A stretch of 64,000 nucleotides of DNA from Mogibacterium sp. (GTDB taxonomy: Bacteria > Bacillota > Clostridia > Peptostreptococcales > Anaerovoracaceae), in NCBI GenBank assembly GCA_024403035.1, contig JAKSSP010000003.1:102032-166031 (forward strand). Direction: 5' to 3'. Below are positions 37,727 through 56,526 of this stretch, in pieces (within the stretch, counting starts at the first letter, position 1; each line of letters starts with the position of its first letter). Under the pieces are notes generated by a model. It ran no database searches. It was given only the letters and a program-made list of their open reading frames with translations, and was not told the DNA's origin. A program made the translations under genes and the position numbers.

Positions 37727-38920
37727 ATGAAAGACTTAAAGCACCTGATTTACTTCGAGGACCTGCTGCAGGAAGCAAACAATGATCTTGTTGCGCAGGC
37801 CCAGAAAGAGGGCATGAAGTGCATAGGCTATATGTGCGAGAACGTGCCTGAGCCTCTTCTCAATCTGCTCGGCTGCTTCTCCAGTAGACTCCGCGCTCCG
37901 CGCACGGGTTCGATCGATGTAGGCACCTACTATCTGACCAGCTTCCTTTGTGAATATTCAAGAGCCATTCTTGAGAGAGCTCTTGAGGGAGGCTACAACT
38001 TCCTGGACGCTGTCATCACGCCTGACGGCTGCACCATGCTGAACCGCTGCGTAGAGAACATGGATGTTCTGCAGGCGATCGGCAAGGACAAGAAGGGCTT
38101 CTTCTTCGACTACATGGAGATACCTATGAAGGCTGACTACAACGGCCTCAACCTCTACGTCGTTCAGTGCAAGAACCACATCCTCAAGCCGCTGGCTGAA
38201 AACTACGGCATCGACATCTCCGATGCCGCCATCCGCAAGGCTGTTGATCAGCACAACAAGGTATGCGAACTCATAAGAGCAATCGGAGATTTCCGCAAAC
38301 TTGACGAGCCGACCATCACCGGATACGAGTTCAGTGTCTTCTGCCTGGCATCCTATGTGGCTCCTAAGCATCTCATCATCGACAAACTCGAAGAGACCCT
38401 TGAAGAACTCAAGAAGAGAAAACCTGATCCAAAGCCTTGGTTCAAGGCAAGGGTAGAGGTCGTCGGCTCCGAGGTCGATGATACCGACTTCATCAAACTG
38501 GTAGAGGAAAGCGGCGCGTTTGTCTGTGCCGACAGATTCTGCTACGGCTCGCTACCTGGCAGAGATCCTATCTATCTCAACGATGAAGAGGATGCTCTTA
38601 CACAGCTCTGCAGCGCTTACATGTACAGAGGCGAGTGCCCTCGCTACATGGATACCGTGACGATGGACGGACGCCGTTCATACGTAGACGAGCTTGCTAA
38701 AGAGTACAAGGCTGACGGCATCATCTATCAGCAGATGAAGTTCTGCGACCCATGGGCTTATGAAAGAATGATAGGCTCACACATCCTCAGAAACAGGTAT
38801 GATTGGCCGGTGCTCGCGGTAGACAGACCGTACACTATCGGTTCGTCGGGACAGATGCGCACACGTGTGCAAGCTTTCCTTGAGAGCATCGATATCAAGA
38901 AGATACAGAAGGAGGGTTAG
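37727..38920 (+). CDS. 2-hydroxyacyl-CoA dehydratase subunit (HgdB/BcrB-like)
   Basis: A 397-residue member of the HGD-D family, which in two-subunit radical dehydratases and benzoyl-CoA reductases holds a [4Fe-4S] cluster. The hallmark CENVPEPLLNLLGCFSSRLRAP region is at residues about 33-55, and conserved cysteines recur at DGCTMLNRC and QMKFCDPWAYE. I start at ATG 37727, after GAGAGGGAGAG; upstream in-frame codons lack support. The second subunit follows two bases later. No activator ATPase (HgdC/FldI type), CoA-transferase or ETF gene is adjacent, so the substrate (2-hydroxyglutaryl-, lactyl-, aromatic lactyl-CoA) cannot be inferred. Confidence 0.9.
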   Translation: MKDLKHLIYFEDLLQEANNDLVAQAQKEGMKCIGYMCENVPEPLLNLLGCFSSRLRAPRTGSIDVGTYYLTSFLCEYSRAILERALEGGYNFLDAVITPDGCTMLNRCVENMDVLQAIGKDKKGFFFDYMEIPMKADYNGLNLYVVQCKNHILKPLAENYGIDISDAAIRKAVDQHNKVCELIRAIGDFRKLDEPTITGYEFSVFCLASYVAPKHLIIDKLEETLEELKKRKPDPKPWFKARVEVVGSEVDDTDFIKLVEESGAFVCADRFCYGSLPGRDPIYLNDEEDALTQLCSAYMYRGECPRYMDTVTMDGRRSYVDELAKEYKADGIIYQQMKFCDPWAYERMIGSHILRNRYDWPVLAVDRPYTIGSSGQMRTRVQAFLESIDIKKIQKEG

Positions 38921-38922
38921 TG

Positions 38923-40521
38923 ATGGCAGTCAGAAAATTCAAGACCATGGTAAACCCTGAAAAGATAAGGGGCGATACAAGATACGGTGACCTTTACAAG
39001 CCGCATGGTAAGGTCAGAAAACGCCGTGAGTGGCGCGGAGTGGGAGACACTCTCTATGATTATTCGAGATGGCTGGGCATCATGCTCACACTCGGAAAAT
39101 TCGTTGCAAAACCGCGCAATATAAAGTTCTTCTTCAGATACCGCTGGATGGCCAACTATCTGGCAGTACCTATGATGGTAGACAGATTCACCCAGGGTCT
39201 CAGAGGCGAATACCTCAGAATGGCTCATGAGGAACAGGACCTTATCATCATCGACGTAGCCAAGCTGCTCAACACACTGGCCCGCGGCGACCGCAGGACC
39301 GGTAACGACGAGGAGTTTTCAAAGATCAACGTACTCGTTGACGAGAACGAGATGACAGCAGTCATGATGGGATTCCCTAACCTGAAATGCACATCCCGTG
39401 AGACTCCTTCAACATACGTATCCGTGCTGCTTAACCAGCATGCGATGGAGCACTATATCGACGTAGCTCAGGAATACGGACTTCCTGGTGACGTCTGCCC
39501 GATGCCTGAGGCTGAGGCCGGCGTATCCATTGACGATGACGCTCCTATACTCGGCGCCTGCGCTGTACAGTGCAACACCACATGCGACGGCTCACTGCTC
39601 GGAAACGGCGTTATCTCCGAGAGACTCGAGAAGGAAGACGGCATTCCTGTATTCCAGCTGCCGGCTCCGCTCCGTCACAAGGAAGACGACGTTCAGGAAT
39701 ACGCCGCTGAAGAAGTCAGAAGAGCCATCAAGTTCATCGAAGAGCACACAGGCCACAAATGGGACTGGGATTACTACTTCGAATGCGCTAAGAGAGTCAA
39801 CTTCGCGACAAAGTGCCGCAACGAGTGGCTCGACATGAACAAGACGGATTATCCGCAGATCTTCGGCGGAAACCTCGCTCTCTACACAGAGACCACATAC
39901 ATGGCCATCTGCGGCAAGGTTCCTGAATTCGAGACAGCTGACAAGCGTCTCATGAAGCTGGCAGAGAAGGCATACAAGAAGAGAAAGATGGCTGCTCCTG
40001 AGTACCGCCACAGAGCGATCGTATGGGGCGTTCAGTCACACTACTACATGGACTTCCTGGTATGGCTGCTCAACTGCTGGGGCATCGTGCCTCTGACAGA
40101 CATGCTCAGCTGCATCAACACAGAGATGATCGCGGATACTGATACTCCTGAGAACAGAGAGCAGGCCTACTATGATATGGCCATGCTGACAGAAGAGATG
40201 ATCATGCGTAACCGTACGCATGGCGGATACAAGGTGCTGCTGGACGACCTCTTTGAGTTTGTTGAAGAGTTTAATGCAGATATGATCATCCTCTGGGAGC
40301 ACATCACCTGTAAGGCCCTGGACGGCATGCACGGACTCTTCGAAGATAAGGCAAGAGAACGCGGCATTCCTCTGATCTGGGTAGACCACCAGCTCTTCGA
40401 CCCTCGCGTCATCTCGAGACAGGGCGTAAGAGATCAGGTCAACCAGTACATGAGAACAGTCATGCAGGAAGAACCGCTTGATCCTTCACTCGAGTTCCTC
40501 GAGGACGAGAATGCATGGTAA
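38923..40521 (+). CDS. 2-hydroxyacyl-CoA dehydratase, large companion subunit
   Basis: A 532-residue HGD-D family protein, longer than the usual 400-480 residues because of about 120 N-terminal residues rich in Arg, Lys and Trp. Cysteines in LGACAVQCNTTCDG and CINTEM, and the closing WVDHQLFDPRVISRQGVRDQVNQYM, fit the family. It should pair with the subunit upstream to form the catalytic heterodimer. The start is ATG 38923, seven bases after GGAGG. A small membrane protein gene is next in the operon. The codon bias is strong, suggesting high expression. Confidence 0.87.
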   Translation: MAVRKFKTMVNPEKIRGDTRYGDLYKPHGKVRKRREWRGVGDTLYDYSRWLGIMLTLGKFVAKPRNIKFFFRYRWMANYLAVPMMVDRFTQGLRGEYLRMAHEEQDLIIIDVAKLLNTLARGDRRTGNDEEFSKINVLVDENEMTAVMMGFPNLKCTSRETPSTYVSVLLNQHAMEHYIDVAQEYGLPGDVCPMPEAEAGVSIDDDAPILGACAVQCNTTCDGSLLGNGVISERLEKEDGIPVFQLPAPLRHKEDDVQEYAAEEVRRAIKFIEEHTGHKWDWDYYFECAKRVNFATKCRNEWLDMNKTDYPQIFGGNLALYTETTYMAICGKVPEFETADKRLMKLAEKAYKKRKMAAPEYRHRAIVWGVQSHYYMDFLVWLLNCWGIVPLTDMLSCINTEMIADTDTPENREQAYYDMAMLTEEMIMRNRTHGGYKVLLDDLFEFVEEFNADMIILWEHITCKALDGMHGLFEDKARERGIPLIWVDHQLFDPRVISRQGVRDQVNQYMRTVMQEEPLDPSLEFLEDENAW

Positions 40522-40954: not shown

Positions 40955-42031
40955 ATGAAAGAAACAGCATATAAGACACAGTGGAAATATCTTATAGACA
41001 GGCTTGAGAATGAGCATGACCTGACAGACGAAGAGTTGAAGGCTGTCCTGCTTTGCGATGCGCCCGGCTTTGATGAGTATATCTCTGGAAAGGCACGCAA
41101 GGTACGTGAAGCGTATTATGGCAAGGATGTATACCTTCGCGGGCTCATCGAGATCTCCAACATCTGCAGGAACAACTGCTATTACTGCGGGATACGCAGC
41201 GGCAACACAAACTGCGAACGCTACCGCCTCAGCAAAGAGCAGATCCTCTCCTGCTGCGACATCGGCTATGAGCTTGGCTTCCGAACCTTTGTGATGCAGG
41301 GCGGCGAGGATCCGTTTTACACGGATGAGCTTATAGTTTCGATCATCAGAGACATAAAGGATAAGTATCCGGACTGTGCGGTCACCCTGTCACTGGGTGA
41401 GTTTGAAAAGGAGAGCTATCAGAAGTTCTTCGATGCCGGAGCTGACAGATATCTTCTCAGGCACGAGACTGCGGATAAGGCGCACTATGAGATGCTGCAT
41501 CCTGCGGAGATGTCTTTTGAGCGCCGTATGCAGTGTCTGCGCGATCTCAAGGAGATTGGATATCAGGTAGGCTGCGGCATGATGGTGGGGTCTCCTTATC
41601 AGACAACGGAGCACCTGGTGGAGGACCTCAGATTCCTTCAGGAGTTCAGACCGGAGATGGTAGGCATAGGCCCGTTTATCCCGCACCATGACACACAGTT
41701 CGCGGATCATCCGGCTGGTACCGTAGACATGACTCTGAGACTGCTGTCAGTCATACGTCTTATTTTGCCTGACGTACTGCTTCCGGCAACTACCGCGCTC
41801 GGAACGATCGATCCACGCGGACGCGAGAAGGGCATATTGGCCGGCGCCAACGTCGTGATGCCAAACCTTTCGCCTTCGGATGTGAGGGGGAAATATCTGC
41901 TGTACGACAACAAGATCTGCACAGGAGATGAGGCGGCCGAATGCATACGCTGCATGGCAATGCGTATAGCTTCAGTGGGTTATGAGACGGTAGTAGCCAG
42001 GGGAGACCATGCCGGATTTGGCACTAAATAA
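40955..42031 (+). CDS. hydE: [FeFe]-hydrogenase H-cluster radical SAM maturase HydE
   Basis: A 358-residue radical SAM enzyme that helps build the H-cluster of [FeFe]-hydrogenases. The cluster motif is CX3CX2C: Cys71, Cys75 and Cys78 in ISNICRNNCYYCGI. The HydE/BioB-like barrel continues with FVMQGGEDPFYTD and HPAEMSFERRMQCLRDL. HydF, HydG and a hydrogenase are not adjacent. The start has no visible ribosome site and lies right behind a terminator, so expression may depend on readthrough from the iron-box promoter. A few PylB-like relatives share the fold, but the motif context favours HydE. Confidence 0.9.
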   Translation: MKETAYKTQWKYLIDRLENEHDLTDEELKAVLLCDAPGFDEYISGKARKVREAYYGKDVYLRGLIEISNICRNNCYYCGIRSGNTNCERYRLSKEQILSCCDIGYELGFRTFVMQGGEDPFYTDELIVSIIRDIKDKYPDCAVTLSLGEFEKESYQKFFDAGADRYLLRHETADKAHYEMLHPAEMSFERRMQCLRDLKEIGYQVGCGMMVGSPYQTTEHLVEDLRFLQEFRPEMVGIGPFIPHHDTQFADHPAGTVDMTLRLLSVIRLILPDVLLPATTALGTIDPRGREKGILAGANVVMPNLSPSDVRGKYLLYDNKICTGDEAAECIRCMAMRIASVGYETVVARGDHAGFGTK

Positions 42032-42057
42032 GATACAAGAGCAGTTTTAAAAACCTA

Positions 42058-42086
42058 TTGACTTGGTAGGAAATAAGAGTTAGAAT
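42058..42086 (+). promoter_or_regulatory. cysK promoter
   Basis: TTGACT (42058-42063) and TAGAAT (42081-42086) are 17 bases apart. The -35 region reads TTGACTTGG, as in the promoters at 3457 and 5303. The stretch TTGGTAGGAAAT could be a binding site for a CymR/Rrf2-type cysteine regulator; that is speculative. Confidence 0.7.
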
Positions 42087-42125
42087 ACCGGCAATCACAG
42101 AGATCATTTTTGAAAGGGACGGACG

Positions 42126-42227
42126 ATGAAAACTGCTTATCTCCCTCTTACAAATAAAAATAACATGATGTGTTGTTGTCTGACGCAAAGCTCCCGGGCG
42201 CGATGTATGGCCGGGGTCTTGTCATAG
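42126..42227 (+). CDS. Poly-cysteine leader peptide of cysK
   Basis: A 33-codon open frame with ribosome site AAAGGGAC eight bases before ATG 42126. Codons 14-18 are ATG ATG TGT TGT TGT, giving Met-Met-Cys-Cys-Cys, and one more Cys codon follows at 42204. It lies about 30 bases after the cysK promoter and ends at TAG 42225. The Cys codons overlap GATGTGTT (42167-42174), which can pair with AACACATC (42245-42252), and the codons right after them form the left arm of the antiterminator. This is the pattern of ribosome-mediated attenuation responding to charged tRNA-Cys. The peptide itself probably has no function. Confidence 0.85.
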   Translation: MKTAYLPLTNKNNMMCCCLTQSSRARCMAGVLS

Positions 42228-42315
42228 GATGACACGCACCTCGTAACACATCGGAATCCGATCCCTGAAATCGAGTGATACGCCCGGGAGCATAAAAAGC
42301 CCCGGGCTTTTGTTT
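42167..42315 (+). promoter_or_regulatory. Cysteine attenuator: alternative antiterminator and terminator
   Basis: GCTCCCGGGCG (42190-42200) can pair over 11 bp with CGCCCGGGAGC (42281-42291). That blocks GCCCGGG (42282-42288) from pairing with CCCGGGC (42301-42307), which is followed by TTTTGTTT and would make a terminator. The leader's Cys codons can pair with 42245-42252, crossing the antiterminator helix. Where the ribosome stands would decide between the folds. T-box and SAM riboswitch consensus elements are absent. Confidence 0.72.
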
Positions 42316-42380
42316 GCTCCCGGACAGGGTAAGGGATATACGTAATTCAGTGAATCAAAGCAAGAAAGGAAGCAAAAGAA

Positions 42381-43313
42381 ATGGCTAATATATATAAAGG
42401 AACACTTGGACTTATCGGAAACACACCGCTTGTAGAAGTTACAAATATCGAAAAAGAGCTGGGCCTCGAGGCAACAGTGCTGGTTAAGCTTGAATACTTC
42501 AATCCGGCCGGCAGCGTAAAGGACAGGATCGCCAAGGCGATGATAGAAGACGCTGAAGAGAAGGGCCTGCTCAAGGAAGGTTCGGTCATCATAGAGCCTA
42601 CATCCGGCAACACAGGCATAGGTCTTGCGTCCATCGCGGCAGCCAAAGGATACAGAGCCATCCTGACCATGCCTGAGACTATGAGCGTTGAAAGACGCAA
42701 CATCCTTAAGGCATATGGCGCTGAGATAGTCCTGACTGAAGGAGCAAAGGGTATGAAAGGCGCTATCGAAAAGGCAGAGGAACTCGCAAAAGAGATAGAC
42801 GGAGGATTCATACCTGGACAGTTCGTGAACCCTGCAAATCCTGCGGTACACAAGGCGACAACAGGCCCGGAGATCTGGAAGGATACTGACGGCGCGGTAG
42901 ATGTCTTTATCGCCGGAGTAGGTACAGGCGGCACGCTCACAGGCGTTGGGGAATACCTCAAGGAACAGAAGCCGGAAGTAAAGATAGTGGCACTGGAGCC
43001 GGCAGATTCACCGGTCCTTTCCGAAGGCAGAGCGGGAGCTCATAAGATCCAGGGCATCGGCGCGGGCTTCGTTCCTGACGTACTGAACACGAATGTCTAC
43101 GATGAGGTCTACAAGGCTGACGGACAGAAAGCATTTGAAGCGGCCAAACTGCTCGCAAAAAAAGAAGGCATCTCCGTAGGCGTATCTTCCGGAGCTGCGC
43201 TTTCCGCAGCACTCGAATATGCGAAGAAGCCTGAGAACAAGGGCAAGACCATAGTGGCTCTGCTTCCTGACAGCGGCGACAGATACTACTCGACTCCGCT
43301 GTTCACAGAGTAA
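42381..43313 (+). CDS. cysK: Cysteine synthase (O-acetylserine sulfhydrylase)
   Basis: A 310-residue PLP enzyme that makes cysteine from O-acetylserine and sulfide. The PLP lysine is Lys47 in [11 protein letters not shown], the substrate loop is [10 protein letters not shown], and [10 protein letters not shown] binds the phosphate. The chain matches CysK rather than cystathionine beta-synthase in length. Shine-Dalgarno AAAGGAAG is well placed. The gene follows a poly-cysteine leader and attenuator, so product-responsive control is expected. Its 3' end overlaps by 28 bases the convergent DUF1461 gene. No cysE or sulfide-producing genes are adjacent. Confidence 0.96.
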
Positions 43314-50154: not shown

Positions 50155-50334
50155 ATTACAATTGTAACACAACGTCCCTGCCGCGTTGAGAGAAGAGGTG
50201 CAATTTGATATATTTAGAATCGATGAAAAGATGAGAATGTTTATAGCGATACAACTGAATGATGACATGAAAGACAGCAAATTGTAAAAGAAGACTGGAA
50301 CATTTCGCTATAAGAGAATATAATCAAATAAACA

Positions 50335-50416
50335 CCAGGGGAGCATTTGCTGAGAGATCCCGAGCGGGATGACCCTTACACCTGATCCGGATAATGCCGG
50401 CGTAGGGAGGTAAATA
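50335..50416 (+). promoter_or_regulatory. TPP riboswitch (THI element)
   Basis: The conserved core is complete: GGGGAGC near 50338, CTGAGA at 50350-50355, GACCCTT, ACCTGATC, GGATAATGCC and GCGTAGGGA. It lies directly upstream of thiT, so thiamine uptake is turned down when thiamine pyrophosphate is abundant. Confidence 0.96.
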
Positions 50417-50448
50417 GTGCAGAACTTTTTTGTTTTGCTTTCAGCGCG

Positions 50449-56317: not shown

Positions 56318-56526
56318 GCGGATAAGATTTGTCCGCATAAAATTGTGAATAGCTCGCAGCCATGTTCGTGGTTGAAAGTCCAAGCCAGATACGGGCAAAG
56401 GGACCCACGTAAGCAGCACGCAGGAAGCGGCTGTGATCATGGCGTATCTTAGAAGTAAGTCCTCCGCAAAGCGGGTCAAGGCAGGTGTGGGGTCAAAGAC
56501 CAGGTCGAGTGGCTGCGGTGCTAATC
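56318..56526 (+). ncRNA. raiA RNA: raiA-type structured RNA
   Basis: A noncoding stretch of about 200 nt with extensive pairing. AGC-CGCAGCC near 56351-56360 closes with GGCTGCG-GCT near 56510-56521, and the interior contains GGTTGAAAGTCC...GGGACC and a series of GC-rich helices. It has no open frame of note. The raiA RNA motif of Firmicutes and Actinobacteria is a structured RNA of this size found upstream of raiA/hpf, and hpf is indeed encoded 410 bases downstream. The match rests on location, size and recalled consensus features, not on a covariance search. Ends are approximate. Confidence 0.7.

Follow-up and report, generated by a model that had tools for sequence, protein, structure and literature searches.

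The stretch of Mogibacterium DNA analysed here (the window, 64,000 nucleotides from a genome of 1.46 Mb that is 77% complete) carries a cysteine synthase gene, cysK, and between it and hydE a leader region with a small open reading frame, several mutually complementary segments and an intrinsic terminator (Table 1). The hydE stop codon lies about 60 nt before the inferred leader start, and the start codon of the leader frame about 33 nt from that start. The promoter from which the start was placed is a candidate: sites of its quality occur on average 1.4 times in shuffles of the region, which makes it weak taken alone. Compared with chance, the window leader folds with z = -3.3. Its terminator is absent from the list returned by a simple terminator scan of the region, and Rfam gave nothing above thresholds for the window leader (four matches, all well short of them, came from a permissive scan). 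Elsewhere in the window, positions 38920-40521 encode a protein whose similarity to double-cubane-cluster reductases and hydroxyacyl-CoA dehydratases is weak and stays under the cut-off, and two known RNAs lie on the + strand: a TPP riboswitch (50327-50425; RF00059, 67.8 bits) and a raiA RNA (56355-56517; RF03072, 130.4 bits).

Table 1. Features of the cysK leader locus, in order along the window.
Feature	Position	Strand	Basis
hydE, [FeFe] hydrogenase maturase, directly upstream of leader	40955-42031	+	family match
inverted repeat CCTATTGACTTGGTAGG, candidate Rrf2/CymR-type operator over -35 box	42054-42070	+	comparison of leaders
candidate sigma-70-like promoter TTGACT-17-TAGAAT	42058-42086	+	10/12 consensus matches
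leader RNA	42093-42380	+	transcription start inferred from candidate promoter
ribosome site AAAGGG	42113-42118	+	sequence
leader peptide ORF, 33 codons, MKTAYLPLTNKNNMMCCCLTQSSRARCMAGVLS	42126-42227 (ATG 42126, stop TAG 42225-42227)	+	sequence
ATG ATG TGT TGT TGT	42165-42179	+	sequence
segment 1, Cys-codon strand (partner 42227-42239)	42170-42181	+	RNAalifold consensus, 19 cysK leaders
three Cys codons, predicted sensor	42171-42179	+	sequence and comparison of leaders
segment 2, antiterminator 5' strand, GCTCCCGGGCG	42190-42200	+	exact 11-bp complement of CGCCCGGGAGC
antiterminator inner arm: GATGT/ACATC and hairpin P2 spanning stop codon	42202-42252	+	both-side pair changes, alignment of 32; folds
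segment 1', Cys-codon partner, overlapping 3' strand of hairpin P2	42227-42239	+	RNAalifold consensus
segment 3, antiterminator 3' strand and terminator 5' strand, CGCCCGGGAGC	42281-42291	+	two alternative pairings
terminator 5' strand GCCCGGG within segment 3	42282-42288	+	pairs with CCCGGGC 42301-42307
segment 4, terminator 3' strand CCCGGGC and T tract TTTTGTTT	42301-42315	+	sequence, consensus fold
cysK, cysteine synthase A	42381-43313	+	NCBIfam TIGR01139 equivalog, 442.9 bits (cut-off 350.95)

A preliminary description of this region had proposed that the frame is the leader peptide of a ribosome-mediated attenuator. Much of what it listed is plainly there: two ATG codons followed by three TGT codons in frame, an exact 11-bp complement that could form an antiterminator, and a competing terminator followed by a T tract. 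The 33-codon frame also stands, but the ribosome site, which had been called good, is only moderate. A run of Cys codons is not rare in itself: the two strands of the 64-kb window together hold six stop-to-stop frames that contain CCC and are no longer than 60 aa, so that the run alone is weak evidence, and it is conservation among relatives that is decisive against chance.

Such relatives exist. A DNA search with the leader matched 19 of 47 genomes of the genus, and a covariance model built from the 19 leaders recovered the identical 19 genomes and, in genome G065, a further leader that is a paralogue. All 19 leaders have cysK downstream, and their peptides share the motif [C/W]CCL, then M, T or K, behind a variable N-terminus. 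Run against 393 genomes of the order, this first model matched 22, half in the genus (11) and half in other genera of the same family (11); one match (L232) sits within a coding gene and was dropped as spurious. The 10 remaining matches outside the genus are each followed by a gene for O-acetylhomoserine sulfhydrylase (OAHS), identified from the N-terminus. OAHS genes also follow three leaders of the genus (in G065, G015 and G069), and the G065 protein scores above the TIGR01326 cut-off. A second model (R2), built from 32 leaders (19 before cysK, 13 before OAHS), matched 53 of 349 genomes of the family, spread over 11 of 92 genera, and 5 of 398 in a phylum-wide sample, these being the window's own genome and four outside the family, two of whose leaders precede OAHS (L238, L239); matches to the models demand resemblance to the starting leaders. 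Among 27 further loci (L233-L259), 21 precede OAHS, one an ABC permease of the polar amino-acid type and one an ABC ATPase; L245 and L258 carry no gene assignment, and two loci missed by the script were read by eye, L240 as an LCCCCRM leader and L257 as a CMGMRM leader. Altogether OAHS lies downstream of 34 of 40 non-cysK leaders (10 of these identified from the N-terminus only), and because most relatives outside the cysK group precede OAHS, the device is not confined to cysK. One genome (G010) has cysK and OAHS adjacent with a single shared CCC leader upstream. At L237 and L255 leaders of this type are followed by two ABC permease genes, one of which, the first, is of the polar amino-acid type, and by an ABC ATPase gene to which the family scan assigned no definite substrate; loci of this kind hint at a wider regulon.

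Conservation of the frame was counted on the 57 leaders recognised of 58 tried, recognition requiring one or more Cys codons close to segment 2; the 57 leave out L240, which was omitted from the list, and L257, which has no Cys codon at positions -20 to -14. Between 15 codons upstream and 4 codons downstream no stop interrupts the Cys frame in any of the 57; the other two frames are open there in 26 and 8. How the sites were chosen tilts this count a little towards open frames. In 51 of 54 cases (18 expected) the start to which the best ribosome site points is an ATG of the Cys frame. Cys codons stand at -14 in 51 leaders and at -17 likewise in 51, with both positions occupied in 45; position -20 is Cys in 18 of the 19 cysK leaders and Met in 27 of the 38 others. 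L051 has WCC for CCC, and L257 has Met codons instead.

The RNA pairings are conserved to different degrees. In all 19 cysK leaders segment 2 starts 13 nt after the first base of the third (last) Cys codon, which is about the reach of a ribosome that holds that codon in its A site, and GCCCGGGAGC of segment 3 is unchanged in all 19. For 51 of 56 leaders, none of 200 shuffles matches the complementarity between the terminator arm and segment 2. The preliminary description had proposed searching relatives for Cys runs before cysK and for covariation in the two alternative helices: leaders were found, but outside the cysK group mostly before OAHS, and the covariation depends on the alignment. In an unfitted alignment of the 19 cysK leaders, 91.0% of the antiterminator cells are paired (33 to 42% in slid versions) and both-side changes are seen at 6 pairs, where shuffles give 1.9 (4 of the 500 have as many as 6); slid controls also reach 6, so that covariation on this alignment is not decisive, and further pair types equal the shuffles. 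In a model-fitted alignment of 32 leaders, whose fit leans towards the structure, 90.2% of cells are paired and 26 of 37 pairs change on both sides, a number attained in 0 of 500 shuffles, and slid versions give 28 to 44% paired cells and at most 13 such pairs. Helix P1 itself is nearly invariant: L194/L195 have A-U in place of G-C, and L016 and L047 carry a mismatch. Unguided folding with RNAalifold returns an alternative: the Cys codons with 42227-42239, segment 2 with 42209-42220, and the terminator. This fold pairs 97.1% of cells in the 19 cysK leaders with little covariation, its Cys-codon helix 97.7% with almost none, and it and the antiterminator fold are mutually exclusive. The Cys-codon pairing that had been proposed earlier, GATGTGTT (42167-42174) with AACACATC (42245-42252), is indeed complementary but is not conserved in relatives; the pairing that relatives keep, by the consensus fold, is that of 42170-42181 with 42227-42239. 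A pairing of segment 3 with GCTCCCGG (42316-42323), strong in the window fold, is not conserved either and was dropped.

Folding of the whole leader free of ribosomes is ambiguous. The window leader and four other cysK leaders form the antiterminator (2:3) and the other 14 the terminator (3:4), while the 13 OAHS leaders divide into 7 and 6. Ribosome-position folds, in which only the RNA left free by a ribosome is folded, were therefore used; 55 leaders were scored, with L016 and L195 unscored. A ribosome at -14 is predicted to favour the antiterminator (2:3 at P >0.5) in 51 of the 55, as would be expected if, in the words of the earlier proposal, a stalled ribosome changed the folding; the figure is 47 at -17 and 4 at the control position -8. 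With a ribosome on the stop codon 3:4 forms in all 55, if pairing of segment 2 across the ribosome is taken to be impossible, the upstream RNA being omitted from these folds. Position -14 would thus be about the last that still opens the switch. With a ribosome at the first Cys codon 2:3 exceeds 0.5 in 13 of the 19 cysK leaders. The antiterminator is not favoured at -14 in L007, L047, L243 and L244, nor in L016 in the separate folding of 19 leaders. The window's own leader prefers 2:3 when ribosome-free (0.97), so that termination there would have to depend on translation.

Taken together, a conserved frame, a fixed spacing of the Cys codons, mutually exclusive helices, an intrinsic terminator and downstream sulfur genes support the attenuation reading, and the leader is very likely a ribosome-mediated transcription attenuator set by the supply of Cys-tRNA. 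The frame, its codons, the helices, the spacing and the gene context rest on sequence and folding; from these we infer that the frame is translated, that ribosomes stall in it and in which direction the gene responds. RNA polymerase would transcribe the leader while a ribosome translates the 33 codons. When charged Cys-tRNA is scarce, the ribosome would halt at the TGT codons, where it would leave segment 2 just exposed and block the Cys-codon strand from 42227-42239; segments 2 and 3 could then pair, the terminator would not form and cysK would be transcribed. When cysteine suffices, the ribosome would cross segment 2 and reach the stop codon, segments 3 and 4 would pair, and transcription would end before cysK. 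In the homologous leaders the same switching would serve OAHS, with Met and Cys codons as the sensor.

A more ambitious version of this reading, which we regard as unlikely, is that one RNA chassis is retuned by codon exchange and that the position of the halt codes for opposite outputs. If so, sensors would be Cys-only at cysK, Met-Cys at OAHS and Met in one member. A halt at -20, -17 or -14 would open the gene, and a halt at the conserved Met codon -8 would cover segment 2 and close it. Such a leader would make a cysteine/methionine decision, or else MCC[RL]M would be a new nascent-chain sensor. Folding does have a ribosome on the Met codon at -8 close the switch, which gives room for a two-input device.

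Two readings in which uncharged tRNA plays no part are less likely still. In one, the leader is a ligand-binding riboswitch, a three-way junction closed by helix P1, and its frame is rich in Cys codons only because the RNA sequence is conserved. P1 and the inner hairpins do resemble an aptamer with an expression platform, and long stretches of sequence are conserved among cysK leaders. But the frame, its ribosome site and its ATG are kept though the N-terminal codons vary, TGT and TGC are both used and exchange at the Cys codons across leaders, the inner junction is unlike between cysK and OAHS leaders, sister cysK genes have another leader RNA with Cys runs (below), and neither the window leader nor the leaders of 18 further loci matched Rfam, all of which makes a riboswitch improbable. 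Carrying about the same small weight is nascent-peptide arrest, in which a conserved MCC[RL]M..SRA peptide would stall the ribosome on a sulfur metabolite. This would account for strong conservation at codons other than Cys: codon -11 is CGA in 28 and CTG in 28 of 57 leaders, and codon -8 is ATG in 52. Complementarity to a downstream segment explains that conservation only partly; among 56 leaders the pairing of the -11/-8 stretch is equalled in 0 of 2000 permutations in three registers and in 149 in the fourth, and within the 37 non-cysK leaders in 32 to 179 of 2000. To the extent that it follows RNA pairing, as it may in part, it does not call for arrest; moreover, SRA is dictated by segment 2, and the part of the peptide ahead of the Cys run, expected to occupy the exit tunnel, is freely variable.

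Attenuation through Cys-tRNA, the preferred reading, is probably joined by control at the promoter. Of 57 leaders, 52 have a CCTATTGAC-TAGG box lying over the -35 box, and a similar repeat stands before type B and type C leaders (below) and several leaderless cysK genes. We take this inverted repeat to be a putative operator of Rrf2/CymR-type regulators, and repression there would add a layer to attenuation. A search of 4 genomes turned up Rrf2 genes in every one; in G022 such a gene adjoins cysK, and in G213 one lies at a distance of about 2.4 kb from the OAHS leader. At the leaderless loci L017 and L019 a divergent Rrf2-like gene, recognised from sequence (with a Pfam match in the L017 genome only), adjoins cysK. 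That such a transcription factor regulates alone, with the hairpin a plain weak terminator, is hardly credible even with the box so widespread and found at leaderless genes, as it leaves the frame, the Cys codons, their fixed spacing and the mutually exclusive helices unexplained.

The trp, his and leu operons have the classical leader-peptide attenuators. Three of the traits by which attenuators are recognised are found here: in the sequence, a short ORF with a ribosome site and start ahead of the operon; codons for the amino acid produced, namely Cys codons with cysK or mostly OAHS downstream; and, by folding, exclusive helices chosen by ribosome position. Like those leaders and the his leaders of Bacilli, as the available part of that source describes them (PMC2965389), this one has a short frame with codons of the regulated amino acid and mutually exclusive terminator and antiterminator; unlike them, it uses Cys and Met codons, its segment 2 lies inside the frame 13 nt past the first base of the last sensor codon, and several members are predicted to read through untranslated. 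In Staphylococcus aureus a leucine-rich attenuator peptide precedes ilv, and the accessible text shows the same coexistence in Bacillota of leader-peptide attenuation with a protein regulator, though with leucine codons and branched-chain genes (PMC5794164). For cysteine, the uORFC-8-2 motif upstream of cysS in Rhodobacterales has been proposed to act by ribosome-mediated attenuation, and by its description in the portion at hand it shares tandem Cys codons in a uORF and an intrinsic terminator but differs in phylum, in gene and in having two stems (PMC8632094). The window gene is cysK and its near relatives are labelled Clostridiales or Mogibacterium, which places it outside that motif. Cys-run leader peptides also occur upstream of cysteine genes in Actinobacteria; there the Cys codons are near the stop and the available sections report no conserved terminator (PMC1262725). 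The mycobacterial poly-Cys type, leaderless and without a conserved terminator, does not describe the window leader, which has both a ribosome site and a terminator. Mycobacterial Cys frames are said to be leaderless in work that goes under the name of Canestrari, 2020. The design had been called little described for Clostridia. Cys leader peptides are published for Actinobacteria and Rhodobacterales; in the mainly open-access literature, as far as its available text goes, there was no description of them at cysK or OAHS in Bacillota. The leader family itself seems undescribed.

For clostridia, cysteine control has been put down to T-boxes, to repressors of the CymR type and to unknown mechanisms. 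No T-box (RF00230) was matched at the leader, or in genomes G000 (77% complete) and G024; G022 has one match and G213 seven below cut-off. A Cys-specific T-box precedes cysK-cysE in Clostridium perfringens, and clostridial cysK genes without a T-box exist, according to the part of the source available (PMC2940859). As described there, that system likewise ends transcription prematurely upstream of cysK and is relieved at cysteine shortage, a response that would hold here by inference, but it binds tRNA directly and has no leader peptide (PMC2940859). A leader family with intrinsic terminators would add an independent Cys-tRNA sensor to clostridial cysteine control and would show leader peptides recruited in a T-box-rich phylum. 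It would also offer a natural series in which the sensor codons differ and the RNA switch is constant, and it provides a searchable model for sulfur genes of uncultured gut bacteria.

Other cysK genes of the genus have leaders of a different kind, and this distinct Cys-run leader RNA in sister species further backs attenuation. Type B leaders (L026, L027, L029, L030, L031 and L054) encode Cys-rich peptides such as MRNYVTGMCCCICMKGVFPDVCSYAADQVPLDIR, MLNIRKDIMCICCCMKG and MTRTFTVTNDRCCCMGMCPGVC and gave no match to the first covariance model (L027 not included). In five distinct leaders (L027, nearly identical to L026, was left out) the terminator arm is complementary to the frame, with 7, 1, 0, 0 and 5 of 500 shuffles as good. 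In all five the complementary stretch sits 20 to 29 nt ahead of the stop codon, and a finishing ribosome would cover it. For L030, L031 and L054, plain folding gives an antiterminator only with a ribosome at late Cys codons and with an incomplete terminator; with a complete terminator 3:4 is favoured at every Cys codon. By eye, AAGGGAG-like bases after the Cys run of some type B leaders look paired with CTCCCTT before the terminator, and a AGGTGCCTC loop faces GAGGCACC in L026, L029, L030, L031 and L054, a possible pseudoknot antiterminator. The type C leader (L057) has no supported antiterminator (361 of 500 shuffles).

Not every cysK gene carries a leader. The preliminary description had named cysK leaders without the Cys run as evidence against it, and 11 other cysK loci of the genus do lack the run, but there the leader is absent altogether, which we read as different or lost regulation. 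A second cysK paralogue (20 loci, L072-L091) has no leader of this kind, its Cys-containing frames looking incidental. The first-ranked cysK loci in other families of the order (L025, L028, L055, L056, L058-L061, L063, L064 and L066-L068) have no Cys leader, and a Cys-containing frame at L065 was rejected as the opposite strand of a divergent gene. Among 76 compared loci (L092, L093, L094 and L099 set aside), L122, from Lachnospiraceae genome SUG279, has before cysK a frame that ends MCCCLP-stop and an operator-like repeat, with no visible terminator. The CysK protein of the window shares 76-90% identity with its counterparts in genomes that mostly carry a Lachnospiraceae label but only 57-70% with several cysK products of its own genus, which suggests horizontal exchange.
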